This document shows positions 4,880 through 37,743 of a stretch of DNA of 37,743 bases, in pieces. Source of the stretch: a virus; the IMG/VR virus record IMGVR_UViG_3300046516_001305, positions 1 through 37,743 of that record; one strand, written 5' to 3'. The notes under the pieces were generated by a model. The model had not been told where the DNA came from. It saw nothing but the letters and a program-made list of their open reading frames with translations, and ran no database searches. Made by a program: the position numbers and the translations under genes. The first letter of the stretch is position 1; the number at the start of each line of letters is the position of its first letter.

Positions 4880-5674
4880 TTACGTGTGGCAGTAGCCGCC
4901 CTCACACATGCCGAGATCAAACTCCTGCTGGCCGGTGTCCACGATCACCTGATTGAGCGGGACTAGGGCATCGGTCATGAAGACCTTGCCATGCCCGAGG
5001 CGTTCGCTGCGCTCACTGAGTAACCGCTCCAACTCCACGGATTTCTGGAACAGTTCTGGCTCCTCCTGTCGTTGCCGCGCCCAATAAGATTTGCGGTGGA
5101 ATGGACAGAAGAAACACGACGATTTCCCCGGAACAGGGAGGCCGCCGCGCTCGATCACGTTGACGCAATCCTGCCGCGTTAGTCGCAGATCAATCAGCGG
5201 GTAGGTGAGTATCTGATGCGGGATGCCGCTCGATGTACGTGCCCGATGCAACTCATCAAGCGAGATGCCGAGTCCAGAGACGGCGGGGTTCTGTTTCGTC
5301 GCGCCGTGTTCTCGCAACCACTTTGAGATCACCTCGATCTTGAACCGTGCGGTGCAACTACGATTCGCGGGCGCACCGGACCCCTCAAGGCGTACGGGTA
5401 TGCCCGTGGACTTGCTACCCTCTTTCGTCATCTTCTGCCAGAGCGTTTCGTCGCGTCCGTCTCGGTATTCTTTGCGGAGTTCGTGCAACGCGATCCCATG
5501 CTGTTCCGCATACGGCATCGCCACCTCGCGCACATAGGCCAACGTCTTTGGATGCTCGCTGTCGTCGCCGGTGTTGGCGAAAAGAAAGGTGGGGAAGTCG
5601 ATCTTCCGCTCCGCTGCGAGCACGAGGGCGGCAGTACTTTGAACCCCTCCCCCGTAACTGAAGACTCGCATCAT
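4880..5674 (-). CDS. PP-loop / PAPS-reductase-like protein, 264 aa
   Basis: The N-terminus MMRVFSYGGGVQSTA is the PP-loop that binds ATP in the N-type ATP pyrophosphatase and PAPS reductase superfamily. FANTGDDSEHPKTLAYVREV follows in the expected place. A C-terminal CFFCPFHRKSYW with later CEGGYC suggests a metal or thiol site. Family members activate sulfate or modify tRNA and DNA; phage copies are common and mostly uncharacterised. It overlaps the stop of 5671-6048 (TGATG). Placement between a GNAT-like gene and lysis genes hints at a late nucleotide-modification role, which is inference. Confidence 0.78.
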   Translation of the reverse strand: MMRVFSYGGGVQSTAALVLAAERKIDFPTFLFANTGDDSEHPKTLAYVREVAMPYAEQHGIALHELRKEYRDGRDETLWQKMTKEGSKSTGIPVRLEGSGAPANRSCTARFKIEVISKWLREHGATKQNPAVSGLGISLDELHRARTSSGIPHQILTYPLIDLRLTRQDCVNVIERGGLPVPGKSSCFFCPFHRKSYWARQRQEEPELFQKSVELERLLSERSERLGHGKVFMTDALVPLNQVIVDTGQQEFDLGMCEGGYCHT

Positions 5675-6048
5675 CCGCCTCGCCGCTGATCGAGCGCATC
5701 CAGGTAAACCACAATTGAGTCTTGAGTCTGGGCAAAAAAGCCCGCATGGATTCCCGACTCGATCACCGTCTTCGCCTTCGTCCCAATATCGTCCCAATCG
5801 AGCAGGCGCTTCAGATCCCGCAGGCGAATCGTTGCATCGCCGCCACGCTCCCGCACCAGATCGCAGGCGAACAGCCAGAGCAGCGTCGCCCACGGGCCGG
5901 CGGCAATCACCCGCTCATGCTCGCGCCAGCCAACAGGTGGCGGCGGTGACGGCATCGGCCGCACGGACGGTCGCGTGAGCGGCCCCGTGGGGCGGTACGG
6001 CGGTGAGACACCTTCCTCATCACCTGGCGGCATTGCGCGCGTGTTCAT
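5671..6048 (-). CDS. Hypothetical protein with winged-helix-like C-terminus, 125 aa
   Basis: The first 45 residues are proline-rich and disordered. The rest (REHERVIAAGPWATLLWLFA, then RLRDLKRLLDWDDIGTKAKT and FFAQTQDSIVVYLD) looks like a small helical or winged-helix domain. I chose the ATG at 6048 because GGAGG lies four bases upstream; an ATG at 6063 that overlaps the previous stop is an alternative. The PP-loop gene starts inside its stop codon. No function is recognised. Confidence 0.6.
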   Translation of the reverse strand: MNTRAMPPGDEEGVSPPYRPTGPLTRPSVRPMPSPPPPVGWREHERVIAAGPWATLLWLFACDLVRERGGDATIRLRDLKRLLDWDDIGTKAKTVIESGIHAGFFAQTQDSIVVYLDALDQRRGG

Positions 6049-24380: not shown

Positions 24381-25700
24381 TCAGTCCGGTAGTGCGAACG
24401 TGATTTCCCGCGACTCGCCCGCACTCAGTTCCGTCAGGGCCCAGACCGCCGCATCGAGTCGGTCGGGGCTCGCGCCGGACTCGGGCGTCCAGCTGCACAG
24501 TTGGTCCTCAAGCGCCGCGAAGACGTTCTCACGCAGGTGATCGCGCTCGTCCACGTGCCAGACACGCCGTTGCTCATAGAGGGCAGCGATCGGGGCCGCT
24601 CTGATCGCCTTCCCACGCGATGCATGGACTTTCGTGTACGGAATTCCCTTGCGCCGCGTCCGCAGCGTGTCCTCGACCATGTCACCGCCGTTGTTCACCT
24701 CGGCCACGATCCGGTCGGCCGCGAACTCGTCGAAGGCGGCGATCGCCCGCCGTGCCCAGCCGTCCGGTGACGCCTTGCAGGAGCGGTCCGCGATCACGTC
24801 GTAGGTGCCATCGGGCCGTGTGCCGGCGACGATGATGCCCGTCTCGTCGGAGCCCTCGTTCGCGCTCGTGGCGGGGTCGATCGCGACCACCACGCGGGTG
24901 TAGTCTTCGCTACGGGGACGGCGCTGGAACGAGTCGAAGTGCCAAAGAGCCCCCGGCGTGTCAGTGAGCAGTTCACCGAAGATCTCCTGGCGCGACATCC
25001 GCGTCCCGGCGTACCGCTTGACGATCTGGGCAAAGAACGCCGGCGAGAGATTGTCGATATTCGCGTAGGTCGATCCGCGCGTCACCGCCACGTCGTGACC
25101 GTCGCGCGCCACGAGATCTCGCACCAACTGGCGCGGCTTCGGAGTCGTTGTCACGAGGCAGCGCGGCTGTGCTCCAATCCGAAGGCCAAACATGAGCATG
25201 TCGAACGCATCGGGATAGCGATAGGAAGACAACTCATCGCACCATGCGGTGTCGAAGTTCCCGCCCCGGAGACGGTCAGGTTCATCCGCGCTATAGGTCG
25301 TGGCAATCGCACCCGTGTGAAACGTGATACGCCGCTTCGACGGCTCATAGACGGGGCGCTCATGCGGGGGGAACACCGAGAGAATGCCGGACGTGCCTTC
25401 GGTAACAATGTCACGAACATCAGCGGCTGTCGGCCCGACCAGCGCGATGCGGTGTGCCTGTCCGCTACTGACGCGAGCGCGCACCCACTGGCTACCGGTC
25501 AGGGTCTTCCCGAAACCTCTGCCCGCGAGCAGGAGCCAGATCGTCCAATCTCCCGGTGGCGGCAGTTGCGCCGGACGTGCCCACACACCTTCCCAATCGT
25601 ACAAGTAAAACGCCGCGTTCTTTTCAGAGACGGCGGAGAGGATTTCCGTGCGATCCTCAGTCGGAAGGCTCGCGAGTCGTTCTACCAGCGACGTATGCAT
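24381..25700 (-). CDS. terL: Terminase large subunit, 439 aa
   Basis: Residues 60-66 (GRGFGKT) are the Walker A motif, residues 149-157 (FDTAWCDEL) Walker B, and CLVTTTPKP the coupling motif. The nuclease half has D275 in VVAIDPAT, EVNNGGD, and SPDRLDAAVWAL with the last acidic residues. The protein pumps DNA into the head and cuts it. I use the ATG at 25700, six bases after GGAAG; another at 25706 is possible. The start lies 43 bases inside the end of the GIY-YIG gene, so the insertion replaced the region before this gene. A frame extending to 25826 is a shadow. Confidence 0.94.
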   Translation of the reverse strand: MHTSLVERLASLPTEDRTEILSAVSEKNAAFYLYDWEGVWARPAQLPPPGDWTIWLLLAGRGFGKTLTGSQWVRARVSSGQAHRIALVGPTAADVRDIVTEGTSGILSVFPPHERPVYEPSKRRITFHTGAIATTYSADEPDRLRGGNFDTAWCDELSSYRYPDAFDMLMFGLRIGAQPRCLVTTTPKPRQLVRDLVARDGHDVAVTRGSTYANIDNLSPAFFAQIVKRYAGTRMSRQEIFGELLTDTPGALWHFDSFQRRPRSEDYTRVVVAIDPATSANEGSDETGIIVAGTRPDGTYDVIADRSCKASPDGWARRAIAAFDEFAADRIVAEVNNGGDMVEDTLRTRRKGIPYTKVHASRGKAIRAAPIAALYEQRRVWHVDERDHLRENVFAALEDQLCSWTPESGASPDRLDAAVWALTELSAGESREITFALPD

Positions 25701-26508
25701 CCGCATCTTCCGGTAAGTCGTCCCGCGTGATCGCCGCATATTGGCGACCGTGCACGATACAGCACACCGTTTGTGGAGATACCTGAAAGAGCGCCGCGTA
25801 TTCCTTCTGAGAACGCGACAACGCATCGTATTTGATGATTGCCGCCTGCTGTGGCGTCAGACGCCGGAGCGCATCGCGTGACTTCTCACGCGCCGACGGA
25901 GTGACGATGCGGCCTTTCTGCGCTGCGCTCATATGCTCGCGCGCGACATCGGTGTGCGTCCCCCCGCGCAACTTCGCCGCGCGCCGTTCGATCACCTCAG
26001 GGCTAAAGACCTGCACGGCACGTGCGGCACGTATCTTCTCTTTCGTTGCCTCGGTGAGCCGTTGTCCTGACCGCGCCGCGCTGATCTTCGCCACGTGCTC
26101 AGGTGAACGATTCAGCGCGATCTGCTGCATCTTGGCCCGCATCTCCGGCCCGTTCTTCCGTCCGGTATTCGCAAGAGCGATCTTCCGCTTGTGTTCTTCG
26201 CTGAGCGGCGCGCCGACGCGACCGCGACCGCCCGCCGTCGTGTTGTATCCGTGCGGCAGTTGCGAATCCAGTGTCCGTATCCAATCGGATTCGCGTGCTA
26301 ACAACTCGTCCAATCCCTCGCAGATTTCCAGCACCTCAAAGGAGAACGCCTCAACGCCGTATTTCCTGATCGCGCGATGGATTGCGAGTCTCGGTTGATG
26401 AGTCGAATCGTAGATGTGCTGCCGCCAACGCACCGCGACAGGTCGCGTCGTGATCCCAACATAGACCTTGCTATTGACGGTGTTGCGGATCCGATAGACC
26501 ACTCCCAT
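25657..26508 (-). CDS. GIY-YIG homing endonuclease between terminase genes, 283 aa
   Basis: Residues 4-90 form the GIY-YIG nuclease: VVYRIRN, KVYVGIT, RWRQHIYDS, then ESDWIRTLDS with the catalytic Glu and GYNTTAGG. Residues 100-190 hold repeated NUMOD3-like segments (SEEHKRKIALANTGRK, SPEHVAKISAARSGQ, TEATKEKIRAARAV). The C-terminus has a helix-turn-helix (SQKEYAALFQVSPQTVCCIV). These features are typical of free-standing homing nucleases. The gene separates the terminase subunits and its last 44 bases overlap the large subunit. A -10 six bases before the ATG suggests a leaderless mRNA. Confidence 0.9.
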   Translation of the reverse strand: MGVVYRIRNTVNSKVYVGITTRPVAVRWRQHIYDSTHQPRLAIHRAIRKYGVEAFSFEVLEICEGLDELLARESDWIRTLDSQLPHGYNTTAGGRGRVGAPLSEEHKRKIALANTGRKNGPEMRAKMQQIALNRSPEHVAKISAARSGQRLTEATKEKIRAARAVQVFSPEVIERRAAKLRGGTHTDVAREHMSAAQKGRIVTPSAREKSRDALRRLTPQQAAIIKYDALSRSQKEYAALFQVSPQTVCCIVHGRQYAAITRDDLPEDADAYVAGRTTREPSD

Positions 26509-30316: not shown

Positions 30317-30885
30317 TGCGTGCCTCCGGGAATCAGCGATTCCCCCGTCTGCTCGAAGTGGGCGTGCCATGTGCTCCGCTCGCCCAGCGTGCGCACCAGC
30401 ACCTGAACGCGCCGCTCGAGATCGGCATCATGCGGATTGCGGTCGAGTTCCTCCAATCGCTCCGCCAGCCGACGTTCCAGCAGCGTGGTCAGTCGCGCCG
30501 ATGCGTGCAGCCATCGCTCGTGCGCACGTGAGCCGGGGCGCCAGGGCGTCGGCTTCGCGACGAACGGCACGTCGAAGTCAGCGGCCGACCACGGTCGCGC
30601 CGCCCCACGCGAGCCGTCAGCGACGGAGGTCCGGCGCCGGATCTCCACCGAGCCGCTCAGGATCTCCGTCAGCGCCGCCGGCGTCGGAAAGGTCCGCTCG
30701 CTCAGCAGCGCCCGCTCGCATGCCGCGGCGAAGCGCGCATCATCGCCCGGACCGAAGAGCGTCCAGTACGCCGCCATCGTCGGCGCGGGGACGTCAATCC
30801 GATAGACGCTTGCGAGCCTGAGCATCTGCGGTCGGAATGTCCGCTCGTAATCCACTGTCCACTTGCCTCCCGAGGACGATGGCAT
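30313..30885 (-). CDS. Possible helicase loader (G39P-like N-terminus), 190 aa
   Basis: Residues 10-75 (FRPQMLRLASVYRIDVPAPT, AAYWTLFGPGDDARFAAACE, FPTPAALTEIL) show the helical pattern of the G39P and similar helicase loader domains: a W-x-x-L centre and a conserved F-P-T/P. The rest is a basic, helical tail. The start is uncertain: ATG at 30885 has no clear ribosome site, while a GTG at 30855 follows GGGAGG by ten bases. It overlaps the replisome organizer gene by 65-92 bases, consistent with these two acting together. Confidence 0.6.
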   Translation of the reverse strand: MPSSSGGKWTVDYERTFRPQMLRLASVYRIDVPAPTMAAYWTLFGPGDDARFAAACERALLSERTFPTPAALTEILSGSVEIRRRTSVADGSRGAARPWSAADFDVPFVAKPTPWRPGSRAHERWLHASARLTTLLERRLAERLEELDRNPHDADLERRVQVLVRTLGERSTWHAHFEQTGESLIPGGTQ

Positions 30886-31693
30886 CCAGTTCCGCCATCG
30901 CCGCCTCGTTGTTCCGTTGCTTCTGCTGCGCGATCGTCACAAGGGGCGCCCCCCCCGACGGACTGGCCCGCGCAGGTGGTTCCGACGCCATCTCACCCCA
31001 GTGCCCCGCGAGGCCGCTGTGCGTGATCGGGATGCCGGGATACTTGCGCCGATAGCGATCCGCCCGAATCGGCACGTCCTCCGGTACTCCGCCCGCTCCC
31101 ACGATTTGCGCGGCGGATTCGAGAAGGCGGTCAAACTCCTTCTGCGAGAGCCGCGCCGTATTGTCATATTCGAGTGCGCGGGTCACCGCATTCACAACAT
31201 CGCGCACCGCAGCCTTCGGAGCCTTTTGCGCGGGCGCGTGCGTTTTGGTTATGGAACCCGTATCTGTATCTGTATCTGTATCTGGAGAAGGGTAAGGGAG
31301 ACGCGCGCGCGAGGACGGGCTTGCATCATGCTCGTCCGGTGCTGGCACTATGCAAGCATCATGCTCGTCGGGTGGTGGTATCACACTTACCGGTTCACGT
31401 ACGTGTGGAGACTGGTGCTTGGCAAAGTTGACGATGGCGACGTACCGATGCTCCGCATCACCGTAACGGACGATAAATCCCCGTTCTGCGAGCCCATTCA
31501 GGAGCGCGTCAACATCCTCATCGTCGTAGGGAAGGATTTCGGCTTTGATGCGCCGCGGGCGATCCGACAACCGTCCTGCCCGATCGGCGAGCGTCCAGAG
31601 TCCCGCAAAGAGCAGCCGCGCGGCCATTGGCAACTCGGCCAGGTCATCATTCGTAAAGAATCCAGGTTTCAGCAATCGAGTCCGTGCCATCAT
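30794..31693 (-). CDS. Phage replisome organizer, 299 aa
   Basis: The N-terminal 110 residues (MMARTRLLKPGFFTNDDLAE, RPRRIKAEILPYDDEDVDAL, LNGLAERGFIVRYG) fit the winged-helix origin-binding domain of phage replication proteins. A low-complexity linker with DTDTDTDT and two PDEHDA copies follows. The C-terminal 130 residues (LSQKEFDRLLESAAQIVGAG, YRRKYPGIPITHSGLAGHWG) resemble the DnaD-like helicase-recruiting part. It should open the lytic origin and recruit helicase. The gene starts at ATGATG overlapping the HNH gene stop. Confidence 0.82.
   Translation of the reverse strand: MMARTRLLKPGFFTNDDLAELPMAARLLFAGLWTLADRAGRLSDRPRRIKAEILPYDDEDVDALLNGLAERGFIVRYGDAEHRYVAIVNFAKHQSPHVREPVSVIPPPDEHDACIVPAPDEHDASPSSRARLPYPSPDTDTDTDTGSITKTHAPAQKAPKAAVRDVVNAVTRALEYDNTARLSQKEFDRLLESAAQIVGAGGVPEDVPIRADRYRRKYPGIPITHSGLAGHWGEMASEPPARASPSGGAPLVTIAQQKQRNNEAAMAELDAIVLGRQVDSGLRADIPTADAQARKRLSD
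31261..31284. repeat. Hexanucleotide microsatellite in the replisome organizer gene
   Basis: TATCTG is repeated four times in tandem. On the coding strand it encodes the DTDTDTDT stretch, so length changes keep the frame. Nearby, GCATCATGCTCGTC occurs at 31323-31336 and 31356-31369, 33 bases apart. The repeats could vary the linker or form part of an origin. Confidence 0.75.
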
Positions 31694-32110: not shown

Positions 32111-33007
32111 TTACGCTTGCTGCGACAGTCGCTCCACCCGCTTCTGCACCACGCCTCGCGCCGTCGGCAGAATGCCCGCCAACTCCTCGCGTGTCAGGTC
32201 GTCCAACTCTTTGTTCCGCCCCGACAGGAACCGCTCCAGGTCGAACCCGCGCGTCCCCAGTTCCCGCAGTTCGTCCCGCAAGACGTCGTCGTCCTCATCG
32301 CCCAACGCCGGCGTGGGCGCCACCGATGCCCTGATCGCCGGCCGCGGAGCGTTTGCAACTGTTTCACGGAGTTGTGACCGTGAGGAACCACCCACCGGTG
32401 CCCTCGGGGCAGTACGCACGACCACCGGGCCCGTGCGGATCTCGCGCGCCGTCCCGTCCACCGTGTTGGCCTGGTCCATCTCCGCATCGGTGTAGATGCC
32501 TGACAGTTCCTGCGGGAATGCCTTACGCAGCGACAGGGCTTCCGCGCATTTTGCGATCATCAGGTACGGCATCTTCTGCCACATCTGGTCCTGTCCCGCG
32601 GCCGGTTTGTATTCCGACCAGCGCGCCGTCGCTGTGAAGGCACGCGGGACGCCTTCCACGAGCCGCCAGACGGTGACCGTGGCCCGGTTCGGATGCGCTT
32701 CCGCTTCCGTGTCGTAGACGGCATCGTCACTGCCCGCGTATTCGCCCGTGCGCTGCGCGACCAAGCGGTAGCCGTCGATTCCTGTCTGGATCGTCCTACT
32801 GTTGCCACGGGGGATTGAGTAGATTTGCCGCGCCAGCGGATCCAGGCCCGTACGCACGCACTGATTGAGGAACTGCCGGAATTCTGGATCGCTCGCGCCC
32901 CGGCAAACCGTCTCGCGCATCAGTGCGATGTCCTCGCGGCTGAACCGCTCCTCGGACGTCATTTCCATCACCGGCCGCATGGCGACCGCGCTTGCATTAC
33001 TGCCCAT
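32111..33007 (-). CDS. Single-strand annealing protein (Bet/RecT-type), 298 aa
   Basis: The segments FLNQCVRTGLDPLARQIYSI, TIQTGIDGYRLVAQRTGEYA, GSDDAVYDTE, TVTVWRLVEGVPRAFTATAR and YLMIAKCAEALSLRKAFPQE, then LSGIYTDAEM, match the Redbeta-like annealing family. The protein binds single-stranded DNA and anneals complementary strands, working with a nuclease. The last 100 residues form a Pro/Arg linker and a helical domain (ELRELGTRGFDLERFLSGRN) that may bind partners. It overlaps the upstream 62-aa gene by 11 bases. Confidence 0.9.
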   Translation of the reverse strand: MGSNASAVAMRPVMEMTSEERFSREDIALMRETVCRGASDPEFRQFLNQCVRTGLDPLARQIYSIPRGNSRTIQTGIDGYRLVAQRTGEYAGSDDAVYDTEAEAHPNRATVTVWRLVEGVPRAFTATARWSEYKPAAGQDQMWQKMPYLMIAKCAEALSLRKAFPQELSGIYTDAEMDQANTVDGTAREIRTGPVVVRTAPRAPVGGSSRSQLRETVANAPRPAIRASVAPTPALGDEDDDVLRDELRELGTRGFDLERFLSGRNKELDDLTREELAGILPTARGVVQKRVERLSQQA

Positions 33008-34232: not shown

Positions 34233-34475
34233 TCAGGCAACCTCCCGACATCCCTGCTTGCCGCTGCTCGCCATTTCACCACCGTCCGTCGCAAACGGGT
34301 TAGGCGGATTCGTGGCAAGTGCGGGCAATATCTGGTCAAGGCAATAGCGAAATACCCACGACTGGGTCACGTCCCATTGCAGGGCCAACGCCTCAATCTG
34401 TCGCTTTTGCTCCGGCCTGACCGTGAATGTCGCAAGCTCGCCGATCCGCGGACGCCCGCGGGCTTTCCGTTCCAT
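34233..34475 (-). CDS. Ribbon-helix-helix regulator (Arc/CopG-like), 80 aa
   Basis: The sequence RGRPRIGELATFTVRPEQKR, then QIEALALQWDVTQSWVFRYC matches Arc/CopG-type proteins: a basic N-arm, a short beta strand (ATFTV) for operator contact, and two helices for dimerisation. It is the first gene of the leftward operon, behind a consensus promoter and a perfect AGGAGGTGA ribosome site. It faces the XRE repressor across a shared control region, so it may be the Cro-like partner of the switch. Confidence 0.8.
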   Translation of the reverse strand: MERKARGRPRIGELATFTVRPEQKRQIEALALQWDVTQSWVFRYCLDQILPALATNPPNPFATDGGEMASSGKQGCREVA

Positions 34476-34494: not shown

Positions 34495-34523
34495 ATTGTA
34501 GTAGACGTGATTGCTATTGTCAA
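34495..34523 (-). promoter_or_regulatory. Leftward early promoter
   Basis: On the minus strand TTGACA (34523-34518) and TACAAT (34500-34495) are separated by 17 bases. It reads into the ribbon-helix-helix gene. Its -35 shares bases with the -35 of the divergent XRE promoter. Confidence 0.8.
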
Positions 34524-34545
34524 TACGCTTATTCGTAGTTATTCT
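34517..34545 (+). promoter_or_regulatory. Promoter of the XRE repressor gene
   Basis: TTGTCA (34517-34522) and TATTCT (34540-34545) are 17 bases apart. Between them lies CGCTTAT (34526-34532), which also occurs as a perfect palindrome at 37005-37019. A reverse copy, ATAAGCG, lies in the XRE 5' leader (34570-34576). I infer that XRE binds these sites, regulating itself and the leftward promoter. Confidence 0.75.
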
Positions 34546-34595: not shown

Positions 34596-35144
34596 ATGGA
34601 GCAACGGACGCAGCCGGTCGACCAGGAGAAAGCGCAGCGCGAGCGGTTCGGCAAGTTTCTCCAGGCGGAGCGCAAGCGACGCTACCCGAACCAGGATCAG
34701 GTCGCGGATGTCCTCGGCATGTCACAGTCACATGTGAGCAAATGGGAGCGCGGCGAGGTCGTCGGCTTCACCGCTGGCGACCTGCGCGCCTGGTCCGATG
34801 CCTTGGAGTTGCCGATGCTGCGCCTGCTGTTGGCGGCGGGCTTTCTGACCGACCTCGATATCGCCCAGGTCGACCCGGACCTCTATATCAATCCCTACGT
34901 GCGGATGTTAGCGGACGATTTGCCGCCGCTCGGCTCCGAGCAAGACGTCAAACTCATCGCTGAGTTGGCGTGGGTCGTGAAGAACTTTGCGATTCGTCAC
35001 GGCGCGCCTCCGGTCGAAAGAGGTGCCGGACAAACAACTCAACTGGATACGCCGGTGGGGGCAGTGCAGGTAGCGCACGCAGCCGACGACGTCCTTTCCG
35101 ATCAGACACCGCTGGTGGCGGCACCTCGCTTACGGCACGCATGA
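34596..35144 (+). CDS. XRE-family repressor, 182 aa
   Basis: Residues 5-70 form a Cro/C1-type helix-turn-helix: RFGKFLQAERKRRYPNQDQV, ADVLGMSQSHVSKWERGEVV, then LRAWSDALELPMLRLLLAA. The C-terminal 110 residues have no recognisable S24 peptidase motif, so RecA-triggered self-cleavage is unlikely. It is divergent from the leftward early operon and cotranscribed with replication genes, fitting a lysogeny repressor. The ATG at 34596 has a weak ribosome site; a TTG at 34563 would add eleven residues. Confidence 0.85.
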   Translation: MEQRTQPVDQEKAQRERFGKFLQAERKRRYPNQDQVADVLGMSQSHVSKWERGEVVGFTAGDLRAWSDALELPMLRLLLAAGFLTDLDIAQVDPDLYINPYVRMLADDLPPLGSEQDVKLIAELAWVVKNFAIRHGAPPVERGAGQTTQLDTPVGAVQVAHAADDVLSDQTPLVAAPRLRHA

Positions 35145-35307
35145 TCGGGACAGGTCGCGGTGCTGGCTTACTCATGGTCTAGCCCTCCTGGGGTCGTTCG
35201 GTACCCGTCGCGCTGGGCGCTCCTGACCCCGTGACCGACGTCCTTATGGATGCGGTGATGCACACACAAGATATTACAACATCTACGTACTTCAGTAAAG
35301 AGCCTCA
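35145..35307. other. Gap between repressor and replication genes
   Basis: The first half is GC-rich without a convincing signal. The last 45 bases are AT-rich, with TTACAA and TAAAGA 16 bases apart as a weak promoter candidate for the gene at 35308. No gene was found here on either strand. Confidence 0.4.
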
Positions 35308-35712
35308 ATGACTGAAGATGAGCGGCCGTGGCAGTTGAAAAACGACTTCTGTCGCACGATCGGCCGCACCCCGCGCACGGTCGATACCTGGGTCCAGCGT
35401 GGGGTCGTCGAGCGCCGACAGGACGGCAACCGCGCCTATTTTCGCCTGCGGGAAAGTCCGCAGCCTACCGCTGCTGTGCGCAGCCCGGTTGCGGAGAGTA
35501 GCCCGGCAGCGGTCAGCAGCGGTGAGCAGCGGTTGCTCGTGGCACTCGCCGACCTGCAGGCCGCACACGCGGCGCTGACGGGGGAGGTTGCCGCGCTGCG
35601 GGCCGACGTCCGCAGACTCAGCAGCACCGCGCAGCCCGGCAGCGGTGAGCAGTCGCCCGCTGCGCCAGCGCGGACGAACTGGTTGCGGCGGCTGCTGCGA
35701 TTGGAGGGATGA
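35308..35712 (+). CDS. HTH plus coiled-coil DNA-binding protein, 134 aa
   Basis: Residues 6-48 (WQLKNDFCRTIGRTPRTVDT, WVQRGVVERRQDGNRAYFRL) form a small MerR-like winged helix. A proline-rich linker leads to a coiled coil (LVALADLQAAHAALTGEVAA, LRADVRRL) and a basic end NWLRRLLRLEG. The layout resembles plasmid partition or KfrA-like regulators. It overlaps the initiator gene (ATGA) and follows the repressor, so a role in prophage or plasmid maintenance is possible. Confidence 0.65.
   Translation: MTEDERPWQLKNDFCRTIGRTPRTVDTWVQRGVVERRQDGNRAYFRLRESPQPTAAVRSPVAESSPAAVSSGEQRLLVALADLQAAHAALTGEVAALRADVRRLSSTAQPGSGEQSPAAPARTNWLRRLLRLEG
35507..35652. repeat. Three copies of a 13-mer upstream of the initiator gene
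   Basis: CAGCGGTCAGCAG at 35507-35519, and CAGCGGTGAGCAG at 35517-35529 and 35640-35652. They encode the recurring SSGEQ or GSGEQ of the linker in the coiled-coil protein. They may be protein-binding sites for its own HTH domain or only linker repeats. Confidence 0.45.
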
Positions 35713-36320
35713 TGAGCATCGGGGCAATGACGCATTGCTGGGATCATGCACCCGTGAAGGGCAGCGCGTTATTACTGCTGCTCGCCATCGCGGACTCGGC
35801 GCGCGATCCGGACTGGGTGGCGTGGCCGGCGGTTCGGACACTCACGACCAGGACGCGGCTCAGTGAACGCCAGGTGCGGTATCTCTTGCGCGAGCTTGAA
35901 ATGGCTGGCTGTATCGCCACCGAGATTGAGGGGAGTCGCGCGGGCACGAACCTCTATCGCGTGCTCAGGACGCCGCGGGGGCTATCTTTGCCCCCCCCCG
36001 CCGCTGGGGGGCTATCAACTGCCCCCAACGGGGGCAATCTGGCGTATGAAGGGGGGCAATCGACTGCCCCCAATCCCTTAGTTGAATCATTAGTGAACCA
36101 GGGAGAGGAGGATGAACCAGAAATCGCGCTCGCGGATCGGATGGAAGCACGCTTTCAAGACCAGATGGACGCGCTCGGGGACCAACGCGCGGGATGGCTT
36201 GCCCGTCATGGGATTGTCGATGCCCGCTCCTGGTTCACCGTCCTCGGTCTGCCACTCGGAGAGAGCGCCGAACGGACGTGGGCCCGCGCAACGCGAGCCC
36301 TCAAAGGACATGTCGCATAA
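35709..36320 (+). CDS. Replication initiator with winged-helix N-terminus, 203 aa
   Basis: Residues 15-85 (GSALLLLLAIADSARDPDWV, then LTTRTRLSERQVRYLLRELE, MAGCIATEIEGS, YRVLR) are a winged helix of the HTH_36 type used by phage and plasmid initiators. Residues 90-125 are a Gly/Pro/Asn-rich linker encoded by DNA repeats. The C-terminal 70 residues (DRMEARFQDQMDALGDQRAG, ARSWFTVLGLPLGESAERTW) form a helical domain. This two-domain form with repeats inside the gene parallels lambda O. It is cotranscribed with the repressor. Confidence 0.75.
   Translation: MMSIGAMTHCWDHAPVKGSALLLLLAIADSARDPDWVAWPAVRTLTTRTRLSERQVRYLLRELEMAGCIATEIEGSRAGTNLYRVLRTPRGLSLPPPAAGGLSTAPNGGNLAYEGGQSTAPNPLVESLVNQGEEDEPEIALADRMEARFQDQMDALGDQRAGWLARHGIVDARSWFTVLGLPLGESAERTWARATRALKGHVA
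35977..36071. repeat. Iteron-like repeats inside the initiator gene, candidate origin
   Basis: Three near copies start GGGGGC-TATC or GGGGGC-AATC and end TGCCCCC (35977-35995, 36006-36026, 36051-36071), and a half copy lies at 36030-36041. Each has partial dyad symmetry. Aligned starts are 30, 23 and 22 bases apart, and an AT-richer stretch (36075-36100) follows. Origin function is inferred by analogy with lambda. Confidence 0.6.
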
Positions 36321-36336
36321 CAGAACTTATGCGACA
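36311..36336. terminator. 10-bp hairpin between convergent genes
   Basis: TGTCGCATAA (36311-36320) pairs perfectly with 36327-36336 across a six-base loop, and includes the stop codon of the initiator gene. It lies between the initiator and the converging HNH gene. No T tract follows on either strand, so terminator function is uncertain. Confidence 0.45.
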
Positions 36337-36337
36337 A

Positions 36338-36715
36338 TCACTCATCGAGCCATGACAAATCTGCCGCTGCGACGTTCGCATACGTGCGCATCCATTCTGC
36401 GCGAAACTGTCGCGCGCTCGTCTCTTCAGGCCAGATGTCCGGGCGGCGGAGAAGTTCGATCAGAATGCCCAACGGCGGCAAGGTGAGCCACTCCGTGAAC
36501 GGGATCGCGACGAACTTCTCAAGCGCATGGTGTTCGGTGTGGCACCGTTCACACAGCGCGGCGAGATTGATGCTCGCATCTTCGCCGCCATCGCCGTACG
36601 CCACGATATGGTGCAACGCGAGCGGCTTTGCCAGATGACATTTCTCACACCGCCCGTGCGCGCCCTCGATCACCGCCCGCTTCGTTGCTATGCTCACCGG
36701 CTTGCGCTTCGTCAT
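36338..36715 (-). CDS. HNH endonuclease, 125 aa
   Basis: The sequence ATKRAVIEGAHGRCEKCHLA, LALHHIVAYGDGGEDASINL and AALCERCHTEHHALEK is a standard HNH fold with both CxxC pairs and catalytic His. The C-terminal 60 residues (FTEWLTLPPLGILIELLRRP, ARQFRAEWMRTYANV) may be a small partner domain. Such genes may serve in packaging or homing. It faces the initiator gene and follows the short frame at 36719-36832. Confidence 0.82.
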   Translation of the reverse strand: MTKRKPVSIATKRAVIEGAHGRCEKCHLAKPLALHHIVAYGDGGEDASINLAALCERCHTEHHALEKFVAIPFTEWLTLPPLGILIELLRRPDIWPEETSARQFRAEWMRTYANVAAADLSWLDE

Positions 36716-37020: not shown

Positions 37021-37095
37021 GTAGGGTCCCCTCCTCACGAGCGGAACCGTAGGTTGTAAGAGCGGCGTGGTGACCAGACCACGCCGCTCTTTTTA
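37021..37095 (+). ncRNA. Putative small RNA of about 75 nt
   Basis: A transcript from the promoter at 36986-37014 would begin near 37021 and end at the terminator at 37095. It contains no ATG and no likely coding frame. Near its 5' end CCCCTCCTCAC is complementary to ribosome sites such as GTGAGGAG before the gene at 2289. Target and function are guesses. Confidence 0.5.
37058..37095 (+). terminator. Strong Rho-independent terminator
   Basis: AGAGCGGCGTGGT (37059-37071) pairs perfectly over 13 bases with 37078-37090 across a six-base loop, and TTTT with TAT follows. It is the strongest terminator in the genome, and no rightward gene ends just before it. Confidence 0.88.
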
Positions 37096-37393: not shown

Positions 37394-37743
37394 CTATTCC
37401 TTGTCCGCAAACAGATCGACGAACGCTCGCGCGATTGCAAGCGCATAGGTTTCGCCATTGCCAGAGCCGAAGAAGGCCTCGCCCTCAAGTTCGTGTGCAA
37501 TCACTACGTCCCAGCGGACGCCGCTCACCCGGTTGCCGCGGTCGGAGCACACGCTCATCGTGCAGGTCGTGTGGCCCTTGTAGCCGTCAATGAAAAACTG
37601 GATGAGCTCGGTGGCGGCATGATCGTCGCGCGAGTAGCGATTGAGGGGCGTGCGCTTTCCCTTCGCGTTGTAAGGCGAAGCGATCTTGTCGGGCCACGCC
37701 TCGCCATGCAGACACAAGTCGACGAGGTCGTCCAGTGCGTCGC
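37394..37743 (-). CDS. Main part of hypothetical protein spanning the contig joint
   Basis: This is the C-terminal part of the gene starting at 155 in the circle. It contains EAWPDKIASPYNAKGKRTPL, HAATELIQFFIDGYKG, MSVCSDRGNRVSGVRWDVVI and AFFGSGNGETYALAIARAFV before the end DLFADKE. The pattern suggests a compact alpha-beta domain. Similar short proteins with an S-G-x-G-x-T-x-x-x-A-I-x-R-A end occur in many phages as hypothetical proteins. Total length is 125 residues. Confidence 0.7.
   Translation of the reverse strand, partial: DALDDLVDLCLHGEAWPDKIASPYNAKGKRTPLNRYSRDDHAATELIQFFIDGYKGHTTCTMSVCSDRGNRVSGVRWDVVIAHELEGEAFFGSGNGETYALAIARAFVDLFADKE
37617..37743. repeat. Terminal direct repeat, right copy
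   Basis: This is an exact copy of bases 1-127. It should be removed once to obtain the 37,616-bp circular genome. Confidence 0.95.

Follow-up and report, generated by a model that had tools for sequence, protein, structure and literature searches.

A probable phage-plasmid: an integrase-less temperate phage with a candidate maintenance module in place of the integration cassette

The window (the whole stretch of 37,743 bases analysed here) represents an integrase-less temperate phage that is most likely a phage-plasmid, a reading we hold with moderate confidence. The most fitting interpretation of the arrangement at 34.2–36.3 kb is a maintenance module replacing the integration cassette, and we regard the comparison of relatives at this locus as the strongest evidence for it. 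The first-pass annotation had put forward a candidate phage-plasmid; a recombinase-free closed map, two initiators and a locus that alternates with an integrase cassette speak for this proposal, whereas we infer the extrachromosomal state itself, as well as partition function, co-transcription and regulation. The relevant features are the following.

30794–31693, minus strand: lytic-operon initiator, of a different family from that at 35709–36320
32111–33007, minus strand: RecT single-strand annealing protein, a conserved flank of the switch locus
34233–34475, minus strand: 80-residue protein, oriented divergently to the repressor; CopG/RHH-like by eye
34495–34545: overlapping divergent promoters, with overlapping −35 boxes
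34596–35144, plus strand: Cro/CI-type HTH repressor, 182 residues (HTH_31, 5e-8; HTH_3, 4e-7)
35261–35286: block CACACRCAAGATATTACAACATCTACG, around AGATATTACAACATCT, common to the window and its relative G002 in a gap that has otherwise diverged
35308–35712, plus strand: protein with MerR/Xis-type winged HTH, coiled coil and C-terminal amphipathic helix
35709–36320, plus strand: O-like winged-helix replication initiator, 203 residues (HTH_36, 1e-7)
35977–36071: in-gene iteron array, GGGGGCWATC at 35977, 36007, 36030 and 36052
36338–36715, minus strand: HNH endonuclease, after the initiator

The ends of the window are an exact 127-bp direct repeat (copies at 1–127 and 37617–37743), and the sequence thus closes into a circle of 37,616 bp. 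A closed contig is expected of a plasmid and equally of circularly permuted or cohesive-end phage DNA. Since such phages close too, as does the integrase-bearing relative G001 with its own 127-bp terminal repeat, closure informs on the absence of genes and not on lifestyle, and we dropped it as proof of a plasmid. Structural and packaging genes of a tailed phage (terminase, portal and major head protein; PHROGs) are present. Six-frame searches of the window with PF00589, PF00239 and PF00665, in which the positive controls matched, found no tyrosine or serine recombinase and no rve (DDE) integrase; they cover these known families, with unknown families outside their scope. Because the map is closed, the missing integrase is not due to an absent contig end, and the earlier claim that no integrase is encoded anywhere holds for the window. 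ParA and ParB are common in phage-plasmids, but not strictly defining. Neither was found in six frames of the window (PF13614 and PF02195; positive controls matched), so that we rejected a ParABS system of known families, and no tRNA or Rfam element was found at threshold.

Close relatives were obtained by a portal search, and three of them were compared in full. G001 (35,506 bp, portal 86% identical) carries an S24 repressor and a 387-residue tyrosine integrase at the switch locus, and beside the integrase lies an attP-like 46-nt sequence that reads as a tRNA 3′ half ending in CCA. To judge from its genes, this is an ordinary integrating arrangement. There is no initiator at the G001 switch locus; its HTH_36 initiator is situated in the lytic operon. 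G002 (40,368 bp, portal 83% identical) has no integrase and shows the arrangement of the window: CopG-like gene, repressor, coiled-coil protein and O-like initiator, with an HNH-like ORF between the last two. The same locus thus holds an integrase cassette in G001 and the module in the window and G002, indicating that the module swaps with the integration cassette. The first-pass annotation had taken an integrase as evidence against its proposal; one is present in the close relative G001 and absent from the window.

The third relative, G003 (36,631 bp, portal 90% identical), has at the locus a Cro-like gene together with a repressor cut short behind its HTH (L027:6298–6931), with neither an integrase nor the trio of repressor, coiled-coil protein and initiator. 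Contig L005 is identical to G003 over 1,869 bp, junction included. We read G003 as a natural case of lysogeny-module loss, and possibly as a virulent derivative. In G002 and G003, the sequence missing at the ends would comprise tail or late genes and not the switch locus. A further record, G004, is 99.99% identical to the window over 16.5 kb, trio included. Beyond G002 and this near-identical record, scans with the repressor and the coiled-coil protein revealed no more copies of the trio, and only two independent genomes (the window and G002) bear it. The partial relatives G007 and G010–G013 have no match to any switch-locus protein.

The repressor matches the PHROG transcriptional repressor family (1e-9), and Pfam and PHROG profiles reveal no S24 peptidase domain in it. 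It is 69% identical between the window and G002, with a dN/dS of 0.27. The divergent 80-residue protein has no Pfam or PHROG match; it is 78% identical between the two genomes (dN/dS 0.21) and is probably the equivalent of Cro. Both divergent promoters, the leftward one TTGACA-17-TACAAT (34523 to 34495) and the rightward one TTGTCA-17-TATTCT (34517 to 34545), are also found in G002. A gap of 163 bp separates the repressor from the second gene and contains the conserved palindrome-like block, which holds the imperfect dyad AGATNTTRYAANATCT and is a candidate operator or centromere. The annotated three-gene rightward unit has correct coordinates, with the repressor, the DNA-binding coiled-coil protein and the initiator all on the plus strand, and the three genes plausibly form one transcription unit.

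The initiator start overlaps the stop of the coiled-coil gene (ATGA). Its product matches PHROG replication initiation/O-like families 1032, 391 and 678 (1e-12 to 1e-10), and the predicted structure, which is of low confidence (pLDDT 44), was not used. The four copies of GGGGGCWATC within the gene occur nowhere else in the window genome, three of the four are palindromic with GCCCCC, and an AT-richer stretch follows at about 36070–36110. The gene thus combines an O-like profile match with in-gene iterons, and the iteron array is a candidate origin. A putative plasmid replication function for the prophage is represented by this O-like initiator with in-gene iterons in a repressor-oriented unit. 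A separate replisome organizer on the lytic side had also been annotated, and the minus-strand gene at 30794–31693 indeed matches PHROG replication initiation (3e-47). Its in-gene repeats are CAGATA (four times) and GACGAGCATGATGC (twice). The C-terminal part of this protein is common to the G002 and G003 initiators and the N-terminal DNA-binding part differs, a pattern that is one of apparent domain swapping together with the origin.

In G002 the O-like initiator belongs to a different family from that of the window (PHROG, 1.7e-33) and contains TGGCGGAAANCGCCA three times plus the repeat AGAGACTACATC; the lytic initiator of G001 contains GGCAGANTCTGCC four times. Repeat content exceeds that of all 300 synonymous shuffles for the window initiator (z 5.3), the G002 initiator (z 12.2) and the G001 lytic initiator (z 13.6). 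The window lytic initiator is weaker in this test (z 3.1, reached by 3 of 300 shuffles), and repressor, RecT, portal and head genes are unremarkable in it. The repeat sites differ from one initiator to the next within a common design, as one would expect of initiator–origin pairs. The second initiator in the lytic operon, the in-gene repeats of each initiator, the trio common to the window and G002 and the purifying selection on the repressor all count for a phage-plasmid, as do the conserved amphipathic tail of the coiled-coil protein and the recurrence of the module in the independent contig G004; the lack of ParA/ParB and of a match to any known plasmid Rep or partition family counts against it, as do the absence of plasmid homologues and the restriction of the trio to two independent genomes.

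Instead, the rightward initiator might simply function in lytic or early replication and lie beside the repressor with no part in plasmid maintenance, the two initiators being redundant through mosaic exchange. Its PHROG relatives are phage O-like proteins and the lytic operon of G001 uses an HTH_36 initiator, both of which fit this explanation. However, the gene is part of a repressor-oriented unit and is ATGA-coupled to the coiled-coil gene, and the integrase-bearing G001 has no initiator at the switch locus; we consider this explanation unlikely, although it survives better than the other two discussed below.

The protein encoded at 35308–35712 had been described as KfrA/partition-like. In a Pfam search at E up to 1, its sole match is a sub-threshold one to MerR_1; KfrA_N does not match, and RocS-like_C (PF04394, DUF536) is not listed for either the window or the G002 protein. 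We therefore filed it neither as KfrA nor as Par. The KfrA identity was dropped for want of profile support and there is no ParA or ParB match, so that the family membership falls, whereas the domain layout does fit one-protein partition factors. In the predicted model, a winged HTH is followed by a 36-residue helix and then by a C-terminal helix. The amphipathic tail is TNWLRRLLRLE in the window and RNWLRRLLRLG in G002, nearly identical although the two proteins share only 45% identity, and among 11-mers its hydrophobic moment ranks in the top 0.7% for the window and in the top 0.01% for G002. We regard the protein as a candidate one-protein partition or tether factor. A fold search gave generic winged-HTH matches with Z up to 5.6, the best among the matches listed being phage Xis, which favours a rival Xis-like role; the coiled coil and the tail speak against it. 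Par and RacA are not among the fold matches listed, which excludes nothing. Within the gene, GCAGCGGT occurs three times at an exact 10-bp spacing (35506–35535) and again at 35639, with a repeat content beyond that of synonymous shuffles (z 5.4), and this is possibly a binding array. No plasmid homologues of the coiled-coil or initiator genes were found in PLSDB, and a sequence search of the PDB gave nothing useful.

An effectively virulent or pseudolysogenic phage, in which the repressor module serves superinfection control or is a relic left after loss of an integrase, is a somewhat less probable alternative than an ordinary initiator. Module loss does occur in the group, as G003 and L005 lack an integrase and carry a truncated repressor, and the window copy could accordingly be a relic as well; for the repressor, purifying selection argues against that. 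Moreover, both the window and G002 retain an intact repressor, intact divergent promoters and an intact tail, all subject to purifying selection, and the G002 initiator has been replaced yet its function class was kept. Least probable, and in our view quite improbable, is integration by a host recombinase (XerCD at a dif-like site) or an unrecognised enzyme, with the second initiator serving another role: a perfect 10-bp inverted repeat with a 6-nt spacer just after the initiator (36311–36336, TGTCGCATAA-CAGAAC-TTATGCGACA) contains the dif-type core CATAA-N6-TTATG, one or more excisionase-like proteins are encoded at 639–878 (HTH_17, 3e-8) in this genome without a recognised integrase, and the Xis fold match points the same way, but its agreement with E. 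coli dif in the arms is only partial, the repeat is missing from G001–G003 (including the trio-bearing G002) and is scored as a terminator of the convergent HNH gene as well, and no recombinase family appears in six frames of the window.

For the phage-plasmid that we favour, the following mechanism can be proposed. In the lysogen, the HTH repressor would shut the leftward lytic promoter and would be expressed together with the coiled-coil protein and the O-like initiator. The initiator would bind the palindromic iterons in its own gene and so start replication of the circle at low copy number. A nearby site would be bound by the coiled-coil protein, whose amphipathic tail would probably tether the circle to the membrane, so that the protein would act as a one-protein partition factor. 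Upon induction, the lytic operon would switch on its own initiator and a separate origin.

Lambda O has a winged-helix N-terminal domain, and its gene contains dyad-symmetric iterons followed by AT-richer DNA. The window initiator resembles it in all three respects, but adjoins the repressor and not the lytic operon, and a separate lytic initiator is present. P1 is a dual replicon with repA/oriR for the prophage and repL/oriL for lysis (PMC9948254 for oriL). We propose a similar division for the window, with two initiators, the lytic-operon one with an in-gene origin and the other for the plasmid state; unlike in P1, no Cre/lox, ParAB or P1-type RepA was seen and both initiators are phage-type. 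pSK1 Par, RocS and TubY are one-protein or accessory DNA–membrane tethers in which a MerR-type winged HTH is joined through a coiled coil to a C-terminal amphipathic helix (PMC11500499, PMC7762940). The product of 35308–35712 has this three-part layout according to its model and hydrophobic moment, with membrane binding putative; in contrast to these proteins it lacks a RocS-like_C match, no TubZ or TubR was recognised nearby, and its partition function is putative.

The closest precedent is provided by cluster A mycobacteriophages, in which a parABS (RedRock) or RepA-type (Miko, Jeeves) module replaces the integration cassette; the authors who described them were aware of no other such exchange of an integration cassette for a plasmid module among close relatives (PMC7157519). 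In both groups, the integrase cassette of some temperate phages is replaced in their close relatives by a replication/partition cassette, and the origin of an HTH-bearing initiator is proposed to lie within its gene or next to it (PMC7157519). The difference lies in the phage-type parts and the lack of an NTPase partition system in the window, which has no ParA/ParB and has an O-like initiator with clear in-gene palindromic iterons. Furthermore, repressor and Cro-equivalent change together with the cassette in the window group, whose host is probably a member of the Chloroflexota.

The suggestion of a Chloroflexota host for the phage group comes from G001, where a cargo gene with a secreted-looking product, situated between the repressor and the integrase (L023:16057–17220), resembles Chloroflexota proteins and matches only two plasmid records, from Candidatus Chlorohelix and Thermomicrobium (both Chloroflexota). 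Scans of genome contigs with capsid and RecT revealed no true relative among host prophages. Since neither a lysogen nor a host genome was found, nor a free circle inside a host, we infer the lifestyle. Only tentatively do we suggest that in a lineage of Chloroflexota phages the entire switch, with repressor, Cro-equivalent and integrase, is exchanged for a plasmid-maintenance module built of phage parts, namely an O-like initiator with an in-gene origin and a one-protein partition factor that tethers to the membrane and has no NTPase. A second, unrelated and probably Chloroflexota lineage performing the cassette swap would show that the swap is general, and such a design would probably escape phage-plasmid detectors that look for ParA/ParB and plasmid Rep profiles.

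Several further genes were observed. On the other side of the attP-like site of G001 lies a pair that is HicA/HicB-like by eye. The window contains HNH genes at 31690 and 36338, and a GIY-YIG-type homing endonuclease (25657–26508) adjoins the large terminase. A phosphoadenosine phosphosulfate reductase-like gene (4880–5893; PHROG, 2e-40) is situated among the late genes, and a strong intrinsic terminator with a 14-bp stem and a T run (37058–37091) lies to the right of the module.
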